IMG/VR virus record: IMGVR_UViG_3300043449_002688
Coordinates: 62,001 to 126,000 of that record
Reading direction: 5' to 3' (one strand)
Source of the DNA: a virus
DNA length: 64,000 bases
Shown piece by piece: positions 5,488-34,947 of the stretch. Below the pieces are notes generated by a model. It was not told the origin of the DNA, did not search any database, and saw only the letters and a list, made by a program, of their open reading frames with translations. Position 1 is the stretch's first letter. Every line of letters begins with the position of its first letter. Made by a program: the position numbers and the translations under genes.

Positions 5488-8400
5488 TTAAGCCAAGAAC
5501 TTTTTCACATCAGCTCGCATTGTAGCCGTAGTAGCGCCAGAAGTATATTTTACTTCTACGTTAGCTCCGTTAACCGCTGCAGTAAACGAAATTCCAAGAT
5601 CTGCACTATCGGCAAAGGTATCTACAACAGTAACGTCTGTACCGTTTGTAGCTACACGAAGAGTACCGATACGAACAGCACCAGCAGAATCTTTCATTTT
5701 GTAAGTAATTTCAACACCTTCTACGCTTGCATGTGCAAAAGTAAAGCTTGAAATAACTGCATTAGTTTGGCTGGCTGAAAGAGAAACACCATGAATGTAT
5801 TCTTCTTCAACAAAACCTGTTTTAGAGGCTTGCTTAGCCCGCTTAACAGAGTTTTGACCTGCCAACATAATGTCACTAGAAACGCCTTCGATATCGTTTC
5901 CGTTAACATCAAGATCTCCGCCAAGTTGAGGAGCCGCATCGTCAACGACAGCATTTAGCTTGCCATCCAACTGTTCTTGAACGTTTGAGTCAAGGCCAGT
6001 AAGGTAGCCAAGTTCAGTAGCCGTAACTGTAGAAGCAATTACTACTCCGCTTGCATCGCTAACAAGAGCTTTGCTGGCAGTAAGAGCTGCCATCTTAGAG
6101 AAGGCAATGCCTGCGCTAGCAGAAACTTGCGTATTAGTAATCCCACCATCAGCAACTTTAACACCCGTTCCTGATTTAGAAAGTGTAGAACCGTCAAGCT
6201 TTAAGCTAAGTTGAGCTGCAGAAGCTCCCGAATCGCTTGTACCATCAACAGTAAGATGTAAGCCTGAAGAAGTATAAAGATCGATACCAATTTCATCGGT
6301 AGGAAGTTCTTTAATACCTGCGCCAACCATTACGTTGAGAGTATTGCCATCCCACTGCAAGCCTGTACCTGCATTAGTAGCACCAGGACCACCAAATTCT
6401 ACCCACTCTGTTCCGTTGTAATCGTAAGAATGGCCAAAATGCGAAGAATTGTCATTATCAACATAAACCGCTTGGTTATTAACTGGAGCAGTAAAGCTGT
6501 AAACAATCGCACCGACTGTAGCATTAGTGATTTCTGCAATTTGATCGTCTTTACCAAGCAAACCACCTTGGGCAGCACCAATGTTAAGGTACATGCTGAC
6601 ACCAAAACGGTCGCCAATAGCTACTGGACGATCAAACAAATCTATCCAAGTAGATCCGCTCCAATAAAGAGCGTGTCCTGCTTTTCCAGACCAATCGCCT
6701 GTAGGAGAAACGCCGACAATGTAAACCGCTTTTGTAACAGGAATTCCAGGAGGAGTAGACAAGCTATCGTCATACAAGTTTGGATCTGCAATAGGTCGCA
6801 ACCAAACTGCACCACTAATCAATGCATCAACATAAGATTTGCGAACAGCATCGCCATCATTAACTGGAGCTGCTAGGTTGATAGGAAGATAACTTCCACC
6901 AAAATTTAAATCTCCAGTCATCGTGTCGCCAGCTTTGCTGACTTTAGTGCTAATATCAGAAGCTAAGCTTGCTTCAGCAGATTGAGCACGAGATGTTTCA
7001 GAAGAAACTTTAGTATCAAGTGAGCTATCAGCAGATACTCTTGCAGATGCCTCAGAAGAAATGCTAGTTGCCAGCGAAGACTCTGCAGCTTGAGCACGAG
7101 ATACTTCAGTAGAAAGGTCAGAAACTGTAGAAGAAATTGCAGAAGCTAATGAACTGTCAGCAGAAGTACGTACAGATACTTCAGTAGAAAGATCTCCAGC
7201 TACGTTAGCAATTGATCCAGCAAGTGAGCTATCAGCAGAAGTAAGTGCAGATACTTCAGTAGAAATTTTAGCATCTAAACTTGCATCAGCAGAAATTCTT
7301 GCAGAAGCTTCTGCAGAAACTGCAGCAGTTGCTTCAGTAGAAATTAAAGTAGCTAATGAACTTTCAGCAGATAAAGCACGAGATGTTTCAGTAGAAACTT
7401 TGCTATCTAAACTTGCATCAGCAGAGACTCTTGCAGATTCTTCTGAAGAAACGGCAGTAGTTAAACTAGACTCTGCAGCAGAAGCACGAGATGTTTCAGT
7501 AGAAATTTTAGTATCAAGTGAACTATCTGCAGATACTCGTGCAGATGTTTCAGAAGAAACGGCAGTAGTTAAACTAGACTCTGCAGCAGAAGCACGAGAC
7601 GTTTCAGCAGAAACTTTAGAATCTAAGCTTGCATCGGCAGATACTCTTGCAGAAGTTTCAGCAGAAGCCGCAGTAGCTAAGCTAGATTCCGCAGCAGAAG
7701 CACGAGATGTTTCAGTAGAAATTTTAGTATCAAGCGAGCTGTCTGCAGCGATTCGTGCAGATGCTTCAGAAGAAACAGAAGTAGAAACTAAAGTAGCAAG
7801 TGAGCTGTCTGCAGAAGCTCTAACGCTTTCTTCTGTAGAAATGCGAGTAGTTAAGCTAGAGTCAGCAGAAACTCGTGCAGATTCTTCTGCAGAGATCATA
7901 GTAGCTAAGCTTTCGTCTGCAAAAAGTCGTGTAGAAGCTTCAGAAGAAATTTCGCTTGAAAATTTTGTTTCCAAACTTTCATCAGCAAAAATACGATTAG
8001 AAGTTTCCGCAGAAAGTTTAGTACCTAAGCTTTCATCTGCAGAAATTCGTGCAGAGGCTTCAGCAGAAACTGCAGCAGTTGCTTCACTTGAAATAAGAGA
8101 AGCAAGAGAAGCTTCACCTGAAACTCGCGCAGATGCTTCAGCAGAAACTGCAGTAGCTAAGCTAGATTCTGCAGAAGAAGCACGAGATGTTTCAGTAGAA
8201 ATTTTGCTATCTAAACTTGAATCAGCAGAAACTCTAGTAGATGTTTCGCTTGAAACTTTAGAATCAAGTGAAGATTCCGCAGCAGATGCGCGAGAAGTTT
8301 CCGCAGAAATTTTAGTATCAAGTGAACTATCAGCAGCAATTCGTGCAGATGCTTCAGAAGAAATCTCACCACTTACATAGGCTTTAACAGCAGATACTGA

Positions 8401-30606: not shown

Positions 30607-30780
30607 TTAATTTAAAAGAAAAGCCAATTTCATCATTACAGCTATAAATACTGGGGAAGTAAAGGCTATTATTGCTGATGAGACAACAAAATTTGCAATA
30701 TCTGTTTCTGGCTCAGAAATATATTCATTACCTTCTTTGTCCACAAAAATATAGTCTTCTTTGCAGTATTCTTTAAACAT
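30607..30780 (-). CDS. Small membrane-anchored protein
   Basis: 57 residues, preceded on the minus strand by AGAAAGG seven bases before the ATG. Residues 1-27 are soluble, acidic and Cys-containing (MFKEYCKEDYIFVDKEGNEY), and residues about 30-56 form one or two hydrophobic helices ending FLLN. It lies between the candidate structured RNA and the small-gene operon. A 10-base imperfect inverted repeat at about 30540-30593 follows its stop and may end transcription. Function unknown. Confidence 0.6.
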   Translation of the reverse strand: MFKEYCKEDYIFVDKEGNEYISEPETDIANFVVSSAIIAFTSPVFIAVMMKLAFLLN

Positions 30781-30855: not shown

Positions 30856-31320
30856 GCGCGGCAAATAACGGTTAACGGTCCTTTTACTCTTATATGGGTT
30901 GAAGGTTCACCAAATTTTACGTTACTGCCGCAAAAATAATATTAACAAAAGTGTGGTAGGCAGGGCGCGATTCCTGCTCTAATCGTCATTAGTCAACCGC
31001 ATCGGAACGTCTCCGAGTCTAGGTTAGCGTGTCTCCAGTGGCGGTTCAATTTATTGTTTATAACTGGCTGCCGCCCCAGTCACCACAGCTTTCCACGCCG
31101 CTACCACAAAATAATATTAGCTAAAGCGAGACCAGCCAGACGCGACCCTGGCTACGAGCGTACTGAGGTTCAACAGCTACCAGGGACGTATCCCATGCAA
31201 GTGATTACCCTCGTCTTCGGCTCCGAGTATTGTCTTCTCTCTGCGTGTCCCAGAGTGAGCAGCTAACGCATCTCCTGACGAATTCTGTTCACCACTCAGC
31301 GACTTCACGCCTTGGTCTCA
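30856..31320 (-). ncRNA. Candidate large structured non-coding RNA, about 460 nt
   Basis: A 550-base gap between minus-strand genes whose base composition is clearly GC-richer than its surroundings and full of inverted repeats. Helices visible (plus coordinates): 30858-30863/30926-30931 extended by 30866-30870/30920-30924; 30960-30964/30973-30977; 30995-31000/31041-31046 enclosing 31002-31006/31012-31016; 31063-31067/31076-31080; 31134-31139/31148-31153; 31183-31186/31191-31194; 31243-31247/31306-31310 enclosing 31253-31257/31293-31297. GTGGTA at 30953 can also pair with TACCAC at 31102. On the minus strand the last helix is followed by GCTTTTATTTATTTTTT, a terminator-like end, which favours minus-strand transcription, as for both flanking genes. 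Size, phage origin and complexity recall the ROOL and GOLLD RNA classes, but I could not verify membership. Confidence 0.72.
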
Positions 31321-31331
31321 AGAATAAACTA

Positions 31332-32294
31332 TCACAATCTGCTACCATTTTCAAGAGCAGTATTACTACTAACTTGAACAACAACAGCTTTTTCTCTAAA
31401 TTCTCTAATATTGCTTGCGCCTACATAAGTAAAAGCACTTCGAATTCCGCCTTCAATGTCTTGCATTACATCTTTAACAGTAGAGGTAACTTTAACATGC
31501 CCAGAAACACCTTCTGCCGTTCTCCAGTCAGCCAATTTATTTTGAACAGCATAAGATTCTTGGGAAGCACTGCCCCTATATGTTTTATGTCCATTGATAT
31601 TAGGTGCAGCAGATTCTTCTGTTTGGGCAAGCATTTTGCCTACCATTACAGCTTCAGCTCCTGCGGCTAAAGCCTTTACTACATCGCCTGCAGACTTGAT
31701 TCCGCCATCAGCAATAACGTAATGCACTTTAGCGCATTCTTTTACGGCACTAAATTGCGGCATCCCTACGCCAGTTTTAATTCTAGTAGTACAAGCCGCT
31801 CCAGGACCAATTCCAACCTTAAAAGCAGTAATGTTATACCCTTTGCTGCGTTTCAAAAATTCTTCTACGGAAGAAGCGGTAGCAAAATTGCCTACAATTA
31901 ATTCTACGTCATAACGATCTAATAGCCATTTTGCTTGATCTACAACCTGTTGTTGTGCCCCATGAGCTACATCAATAATAAAACGATAAGCTCCACTAAC
32001 TGCTAAAGCAGCGGCTCGCTCTCGCTCTAATTCTCCCATACCGATTGATACCCAAGTTTCTTTAGGAGAGTTTTTATATAAATTTATGTTTTCTTTAATA
32101 TCGGCAAAACGATGAAGGCAGCCCACACCTCCGGCATTTGTCATAGCATGAGCCATATTAGGTCCAGTAACAGAATCCATATTGGCTGAGATTACTGGTA
32201 TTTTTAAACCAAAACTACTAACGTCTACATCTTTTCTTGAGTTTATTTCTGAAAACTGTGGCAAAATTAGAACATCATCATAGGTCAAAAGCAT
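31332..32294 (-). CDS. IMP dehydrogenase/GMP reductase family enzyme
   Basis: 320 residues forming one TIM barrel without CBS domains, which matches GMP reductase (about 340) better than IMP dehydrogenase (about 490). Visible signatures: LTYDDVLILPQ at the start, SANMDSVTG, AGGVGCLHRF, the catalytic-loop GIGPGAACTTR with the active-site Cys (about residue 165), VIADGGIKSAGDVVKALAAGAEAVMVG for phosphate binding, and YRGSASQES. GMP reductase turns GMP into IMP with NADPH; IMP dehydrogenase does the opposite oxidation step toward XMP. The lack of CBS domains is not decisive because minimal IMPDHs exist. GGAG precedes ATG. It likely adjusts purine pools during infection. It follows the glycosyltransferase gene by 51 bases. 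Confidence 0.9.
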   Translation of the reverse strand: MLLTYDDVLILPQFSEINSRKDVDVSSFGLKIPVISANMDSVTGPNMAHAMTNAGGVGCLHRFADIKENINLYKNSPKETWVSIGMGELERERAAALAVSGAYRFIIDVAHGAQQQVVDQAKWLLDRYDVELIVGNFATASSVEEFLKRSKGYNITAFKVGIGPGAACTTRIKTGVGMPQFSAVKECAKVHYVIADGGIKSAGDVVKALAAGAEAVMVGKMLAQTEESAAPNINGHKTYRGSASQESYAVQNKLADWRTAEGVSGHVKVTSTVKDVMQDIEGGIRSAFTYVGASNIREFREKAVVVQVSSNTALENGSRL

Positions 32295-34117: not shown

Positions 34118-34358
34118 CTGCCCTAATTGCAAGTCTAGCTGGATTGGTGAGCCAATTCCTGAAGTCCTTCGTCAGCATTACGGCGATGAAACTCATTGGC
34201 GCAGAGAAATAAACATTGACGGTGGCTACATGGGCATTTATGATGGAATAGTCGCAGTTATATGCCCAGACTGCAAAGAAGAATTTCCCCGAAACGATAG
34301 TTCTTGGGCGTTAGAAATGTTTAAGAAGTACCAAGAGGCTGTAAATGAGAGTAAATAA
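34110..34358 (+). CDS. Small zinc-ribbon protein with split Cys pairs
   Basis: 82 residues. Cys pairs are at the start (CPNCKSSWIG) and near residue 52 (VICPDCKEEFPR), separated by an insert containing Trp/Arg and a GGYMGIYDG turn. This C-x2-C...C-x2-C frame suggests a rubredoxin-like knuckle pair. It overlaps the genes on both sides. Second zinc-ribbon gene in a row. Confidence 0.7.
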   Translation: MDNCPNCKSSWIGEPIPEVLRQHYGDETHWRREINIDGGYMGIYDGIVAVICPDCKEEFPRNDSSWALEMFKKYQEAVNESK

Positions 34359-34947
34359 AGAAATAATCTCAAAATTAGGTCCATGTAAAAATAGGTTCGA
34401 TAATTATTTAGAATATTACTCTGACTTTGATGGAACCTTACAAGAATTTATTTTGCTAGATAAAATTACTCATAAAGACAAAATTTGGGTAATTACAAAG
34501 CTTTTTGATGACAAGCAAAAAAGTAAATGGGCTATTAAATGTGCTTTTAGCGTTTTATATATATACGAAAAGAGTTTTCCGTCTGACGATAGACCAAGAA
34601 AAGCTATAGAAGCCGCACAGGAATGCCTAAGTAATCCTGCTGCTCGTGCTGCTGCTTATGCTGCTGCTGATGATGCTGCTCGTGCTGCTGCTTATGCTGC
34701 TCGTGCTGCTGCTTATGCTGCTGCTTATGCTGCTTATGCTGCTGCTTATGCTGCTGATGATGATGTTACTCGTGCTGCTCGTGCTGCTGTTGATGCTGCT
34801 CGTGCTGCTGCTTATGCTGCTGCTGATGATGCTGCTCGTGCTGCTGCTTATGCTGCTGATGATGATGTTACTCGTGCTGCTGCTTATGATACGCAAAAAC
34901 AACTTAATTTAAAGTTTGCTATCGAGGTCTTAAATGAAACGAAGTGA
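34345..34947 (+). CDS. Imm5-like phage protein with long Ala-rich repeat tail
   Basis: 200 residues. The N-terminal 95 residues include IWVITKLFDDKQKSKWAIKCAFSVLYIYEKSFPSDDRPRKAIEAAQECL, a segment I know from phage proteins annotated with an Imm5-type immunity domain that end in AAYAA repeats. From about residue 99 to 182 the protein is a degenerate repeat of Ala with Tyr, Arg and Asp (AAAYAA, AADDAAR, DDDVTR). It resumes QKQLNLKFAIEVLNETK. It would form one long helix or stacked helices. The last four residues, NETK, arise because its 3' end is also the start of the next gene. Whether it protects the phage against a toxin is inference. Confidence 0.75.
   Translation: MRVNKEIISKLGPCKNRFDNYLEYYSDFDGTLQEFILLDKITHKDKIWVITKLFDDKQKSKWAIKCAFSVLYIYEKSFPSDDRPRKAIEAAQECLSNPAARAAAYAAADDAARAAAYAARAAAYAAAYAAYAAAYAADDDVTRAARAAVDAARAAAYAAADDAARAAAYAADDDVTRAAAYDTQKQLNLKFAIEVLNETK
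34639..34890 (+). repeat. Triplet-rich repeat (GCT with TAT, CGT, GAT)
   Basis: A 252-base stretch made almost entirely of GCT codons interspersed with TAT, CGT, GAT and GTT. Two larger copies of a unit containing GATGATGATGTTACTCGT lie about 105 bases apart. It is prone to slippage and keeps three frames open, which explains apparent ORFs on other frames. Confidence 0.9.

Follow-up and report, generated by a model that had tools for sequence, protein, structure and literature searches.

The window, 64,000 nucleotides long, spans positions 62001-126000 of G000, an IMG/VR phage record of 154.8 kb. It contains a non-coding island with a G+C content of about 50%, against about 33% genome-wide, between a gene of the IMP dehydrogenase/GMP reductase family and a small ORF. 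Comparison of this phage with a related one (G007) establishes that the island carries two tandem RNA modules on the minus strand, each running from the 5' strand of a closing stem (P1) to its 3' strand (P1') and enclosing a conserved domain (P2), a variable insert and a hairpin (P3). From upstream to downstream, the features are:

31332..32294, minus strand: upstream gene, IMP dehydrogenase/GMP reductase family (PF00478, E 8.6e-74)
31127..31320, minus strand: module 1 (W1), P1 to P1', TGAGACC(A)...(T)GGTCTCG; descriptor match, with a syntenic orthologue (A1) in G007
31243..31311, minus strand: conserved P2 domain of W1, GGCGUGAAGUCGCUG...UGGGACACGC, with a variant internal loop common to A1
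31153..31242, minus strand: accessory insert of W1, AGAGAGAAGACAAUACUCGG...GAGGGUAAUC...UUGAACCUCAGUA, conserved in A1 and in contig L158
31135..31152, minus strand: P3 of W1, GCCAG-GGUCGCGU-CUGGC
31109..31126, minus strand: U-rich linker after W1, with UAAUAUUAUUUU, part of a 12-base repeat
30952..31108, minus strand: module 2 (W2), P1 TGTGGTAG...CTACCACA; descriptor match and match to covariance model R1
31027..31099, minus strand: conserved P2 domain of W2, GGCGUGGAAAGCUGUGG...CCACUGGAGACACGC (P2a 31098-31094/31031-31027; P2b 31086-31083/31041-31038)
30960..30977, minus strand: P3 of W2, GCAGG-AAUCGCGC-CCUGC
30932..30951, minus strand: U-rich linker after W2, with the second copy of the 12-base repeat
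30858..30931, minus strand: third stem domain, terminator-like: a 13-bp stem GCGGCAGUAACG...CGUUAUUUGCCGC and then a U-rich run
30607..30780, minus strand: downstream ORF of 57 aa

For most of the large G000 proteins tested, a family match is absent. Elsewhere in the window, positions 34345-34947 encode an Ala/Asp/Tyr-rich repeat protein, open in several frames, with an Imm5-like Pfam match. At G000:45973-50841 (L013:5973-10841), DNA polymerase III alpha occurs in two ORFs that match consecutive parts of the profile and are separated by a 382-aa ORF with a zinc-finger-like domain; insertion of a homing endonuclease or an intron is a possible cause of the split.

The order of parts is the same in each module: P1; the conserved domain CGGCGUGGAAAGCU...UGGAGACACGC, which forms stems P2a and P2b; the variable insert; and P3, which abuts P1' with no base in between. 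A single base, usually C, separates P1 from P2, whose 5' half is GGCGUGGAAAGCU and whose 3' half is UGGAGACACGC, the two being connected by a variable loop that carries helix P2b. The internal loop of P2, GGAAAGCU/UGGAGA, is near-invariant, and the loop of P3 reads AGU(A/C)GCGN (AGUMGCGN). The insert spans 29-126 nt (median 76.5), giving module lengths of 131-238 nt across the family and of about 155-195 nt in the window. Both the family and the predicted fold of each module, a multi-way (three-way) junction closed by P1, can be regarded as firm on comparative grounds. A covariance model built on the P2 domain alone (R1) recovers W1 with 28.8 bits (G000:93242-93312) and W2 with 56.7 bits (E 3.1e-12), the sequences of both being in its training set.

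The original prediction, made on the plus strand, had described the locus as an internal duplication under selection for structure, and comparison of homologues upholds the duplication, the conserved loop and the selection. Its 12-base repeat AAAATAATATTA is present at 30933-30944 and 31108-31119, and is followed after 15 bases in each copy by a hairpin with an 8-base loop: hairpin 1, GCAGG-GCGCGATT-CCTGC, at 30960-30977, and hairpin 2, AGCCAG-ACGCGACC-CTGGCT, at 31134-31153. The loop core CGCGA is identical in the two and the stems have changed on both sides, in a compensatory manner. An exact 12-base repeat arises in 1 of 2000 dinucleotide shuffles of 30927-31153, as does a pair of 8-base-loop hairpins with a common 5-base loop core. 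The repeat unit proves larger than had been described: what had been read on the plus strand as two copies is, in each module, the stretch formed by P3, P1' and the linker, and the duplicated units are the whole modules, 31320-31127 and 31108-30952 on the minus strand. Hairpins 2 and 1 are thus P3 of W1 and of W2, respectively. The third proposed hairpin (31063-31080) exists, within the P2 loop of W2, but is not seen in the G007 orthologue of this module (A2). The GCCGC element said to precede both copies is a superficial likeness, belonging near 30926 to the terminator-like stem and near 31097 to P1 and the conserved GGC of W2. Folding energy is unremarkable (z -1.0 on the minus strand, -1.9 on the plus strand), so that the case rests on comparison; the terminator-like domain at 30858-30931 folds with -22.4 kcal/mol (z -2.0) and is absent from G007.

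Relatives of the window's phage were not found with the proteins adjacent to the RNA as queries; its terminase, however, retrieved 34 related contigs, the closest cultivated phage being Myxococcus phage Mx1, at 34% identity. One further candidate relative of 162 kb (L002/G001) was unrelated and was set aside. Among the related records, blastn of the RNA yields one clear homologue, G007 (E 1.7e-23), located upstream of the G007 homologue of a 744-aa protein encoded in the window, and a second site elsewhere in G007; this phage thus carries a tandem pair at the same syntenic place as the window and a third copy apart from it. In the orthologous pairs W1/A1 and W2/A2, P1 is kept exactly, and the loops and the insert have diverged; the W1 insert retains a 38-base block identical to A1, and an exact-pattern scan finds this insert only in L158 and G007. 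Against named phages, blastn gives nothing convincing for the RNA or its individual modules, BLAST being weak for such short cores. In another relative, G029, the homologue of the 744-aa protein is preceded by a phage tmRNA gene (L095:3620-4049, tag DNEYEFQAAA), in the place held by the tandem RNA in G000 and G007. Just ahead of the same homologue, a structured intercistronic stretch, GAGACC...GGUCUC (L095:3280-3400), is missed by R1; it is possibly a remote relative of module 1.

The family was delineated with a pattern for the P2 core alone, GGCRTGGARAGC...GAGACACGC, P1 and P3 lying outside it. In IMG/VR this pattern yields 36 stretches, and P1 and P3 are present in all 36 (L182 having been completed from its record, with P1 imperfect in L177 and the P3 loop imperfect in L153). 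The same pattern in 85,000 bacterial and archaeal genomes yields 25 stretches, with P1 and P3 in just one, which sits on a 4-kb contig; the family is thus in essence restricted to phages. A second pattern, with P2a unconstrained, adds further contigs with altered P2a, for a total of at least 38. In 38 aligned modules, standard pairs make up 95.5% of 798 pair cells, against 29-45% with the partners slid; covariation scores 0.635, where shuffles give 0.174; and every pair of P1, P2b and P3 has changes on both sides. As P1 and P3 helped to choose some of the extra modules, the figure free of this bias is the 36 of 36. In the first set P2a is invariant; elsewhere it takes compensatory forms (ACGUG/CACGU, GUGUG/CACAC, AUGUG/CAUAU, AUAUG/CAUAU). 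In L320, L321 and L323 it varies while the P3 loop stays constant; a pseudoknot between the two was therefore rejected as lacking covariation support. T-arm-like hairpins (GGGUUCGAUUCCC, GUUCGAAUCC, GGGGUGCAAAUCCC) occur in the variable parts of the L163 module at 5719 (reverse complement), of L164 and of G063b.

The perfect inverted repeats of P1, up to 14 bp long, would also suit conservation acting on the DNA, in the form of a cruciform used in replication or packaging. However, G-U cells outnumber A-C cells by 23 to 9, which favours a minus-strand RNA over a DNA structure, and the occurrence of two or three dispersed copies per genome, mostly codirectional with the neighboring genes, also counts against a cruciform, which we hold to be extremely improbable.

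Copy number varies: some homologues are single-copy, and many phages carry two or three copies. With R1, at least two are found in G000, G007, G034, G038, G042, G046, G048, G057, G058 and G063, several of them in tandem. The P3 loop is kept in every member, so that single-copy homologues devoid of a conserved loop were not encountered. P1, which in the family at large ranks with the most variable parts, is the same in both modules of some tandem pairs (L163, L176, G038). Among 32 carrier records, 6 have a relative of the window's terminase, 9 others have a match over the cut-off to a different terminase family, Terminase_6N, and none has both; among the relatives with the window's type of terminase, R1 does not detect the RNA in most. 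The mutually exclusive terminases and the lack of detection in most relatives indicate that the RNA is accessory and common to unrelated phages. The family spans at least 38 phage sequences and at least two unrelated phage lineages. Comparison of the sequences establishes the helices, the favoured strand, the tandem or multi-copy layout and the spread over unrelated phages.

The genomic surroundings bear on whether the RNA acts in cis. For about 18 of the 53 modules, the next gene begins 14-32 nt downstream and has a Shine-Dalgarno-like site, which counts against a free-standing RNA in that it also fits a leader, that is, a riboswitch or attenuator in which a ligand or factor would stabilise P1, so that P1 and the U-tract terminate transcription or hide the Shine-Dalgarno site of the next gene, with tandem copies sharpening the response. 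The U-rich tract and Shine-Dalgarno site right after P1' in about a third of the modules, the tandem arrangement, reminiscent of tandem riboswitches such as that for glycine (two homologous modules in series, at some loci ahead of a gene), and the small invariant core, which resembles a ligand pocket, all speak for such a leader. However, the closely following genes differ (chaperonin, aminotransferase, RecA-like, helicase, proteins of unknown function) and have no family, function or pathway in common, where genes regulated by a riboswitch should share one; a place in the 5' region of a gene, found for about a third, is not general, as at about 10 of 35 loci the downstream gene is convergent or a codirectional one is missing; no Rfam riboswitch matches the modules; and the window lacks a start with a Shine-Dalgarno site within 75 nt of W2. 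A leader is thus unlikely. Among the genes flanking the RNA loci, no recurring family was found; judged by this and by the exclusive terminase types, the RNA probably stands free and is not a riboswitch.

The modules often fit tightly between codirectional genes, P1 beginning 8-17 nt past a stop codon, as would be expected of an intercistronic mRNA element whose compact fold blocks exonucleases or directs processing within an operon. For such an element, however, the invariant 8-base loop and the internal loop would be needless, and some loci have their own promoter at P1 and no codirectional gene beyond; we consider it distinctly unlikely. These promoters are sigma-70-like and would place the transcript start at P1 (G048b, TTGACA-17-TATACT-6; L159; L323a), the enrichment being modest overall (5.0 against 5.6 mismatches); at the other end, the 10 bases after P1' contain on average 4.8 T, against 3.4 in the flank. 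A tRNA-Met gene adjoins the tandem in G007, and a tRNA follows the module at 12-14 nt in L171 and L172, such proximity being limited to a minority of loci. Promoters, U-tracts, the tRNA and tmRNA context and the varied downstream genes speak more for a stable RNA that stands on its own than for a riboswitch. The tRNA and tmRNA genes of phages are alike in occupying the same locus in relatives and in being short stable RNAs between genes; they differ in structure, the modules giving no match with ARAGORN or Rfam.

A cmscan against Rfam 15, at the gathering threshold and at E up to 10, finds no match for the window region and for 18 and 11 member loci (about 25), the loose threshold yielding only scattered chance matches; the models for GOLLD, ROOL, group I and II introns and known small ribozymes do not match the modules, and a literature search with the sequence returned unrelated text only. 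Judged against Rfam 15, the family appears undescribed; extensive sets of predicted structured RNAs of viruses have been published, and it may already figure in one of them.

Nearest in kind, not in membership, are GOLLD and ROOL. GOLLD is a large structured phage RNA, often near tRNA islands, with one conserved and one variable part, and many of its members exceed 800 nt; ROOL is a structured RNA of phages and prophages, also near tRNA islands, whose partner is not known; both assemble through loops, and GOLLD is bound by ribosomes in pull-downs (PMC12286853). The present family shares with GOLLD its occurrence in phages and the combination of a conserved and a variable part; it differs in consisting of modules of 130-240 nt, often in tandem, and from ROOL in its smaller size, its other fold, its tandem modules and its near absence from bacterial genomes (1 of 25 pattern matches). 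Homo-oligomers or cages like those of GOLLD and ROOL, in which P3 loops form symmetric kissing contacts, would accord with the loop-mediated assembly of these RNAs near tRNA islands (PMC12286853), with the tandem copies and with the CGCG palindrome in 25 of 54 loops, and kissing through this palindrome had been put forward for testing in the original prediction. However, the palindrome is not kept across homologues: position M of the loop is A in 29 of 54 modules and C in 25, the loops fall into 19 types, and about a quarter, including both orthologous copies in G007, lack any 4-base palindrome. Kissing is thus not a general feature, and, with modules of 131-238 nt, far below the more than 800 nt of many GOLLD members (PMC12286853), cages seem very improbable. 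The invariant internal and hairpin loops and the patchy, many-copy presence might instead be those of a ribozyme, or of a mobile RNA element with P1 as its terminal inverted repeat; this we judge highly improbable, as no Rfam ribozyme or intron matches, and as the lack of a recurring neighbour family means that no nuclease, transposase or reverse transcriptase is shared.

A protein partner was sought across the carriers, and none was identified. dUTPase and ribonucleotide reductase were rejected, both being common in phages. A 125-aa coiled-coil/zinc-ribbon protein with a weak OrfB_IS605 match (L263:17784-18161 and relatives) occurs in 8 of 11 RNA carriers and in none of 5 non-carriers; as it is missing from G007, it is not convincing. 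Bacterial Y RNAs, bound by Ro/TROVE proteins, are likewise small structured RNAs with a closing terminal stem; they differ in that the TROVE protein does not co-occur with the present family, and a link was rejected, as this protein is absent from G000, G007 and G014. TROVE (Ro60-like) proteins are encoded in Myxococcus phage Mx1 (56915-58564) and in G013, G015 and G016, relatives in which the RNA is undetected.

These considerations suggest, with a probability of about one half, that the locus encodes tandem modules of an undescribed structured phage RNA that is free-standing, acts in trans and probably binds a conserved host component. At the level of molecular function, we infer that this RNA would either have a transcript of its own or be processed out of that of an operon, and that it would persist as a stable RNA, like those of the tRNA and tmRNA genes at this position in related phages. 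A single binding surface would probably be built from the P3 loop and the internal loop of P2, since both are unpaired and near-invariant and the stack of P1 on P3 brings them together. The component bound would most likely belong to the translation or RNA-handling machinery; translation is the best guess because of the tRNA and tmRNA neighborhood and the binding of GOLLD by ribosomes (PMC12286853). Extra copies would raise the dose of the RNA.

Structured RNAs that recur in unrelated phages with a near-invariant core, and are almost missing from host genomes, are of a rare kind. GOLLD and ROOL are the best-known examples, and their function has not been assigned; being smaller, modular and easily made in vitro, the family described here offers a tractable route to the role of such phage RNAs. 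With its consensus, regions of phage genomes that are now blank can be annotated directly. More tentatively, it may constitute a new phage-restricted, multi-copy, trans-acting class of RNA, whose junction would expose one conserved surface to machinery universal among hosts, such as the ribosome or a defence nuclease; unrelated phages would then use it to take over the host or to shield themselves.
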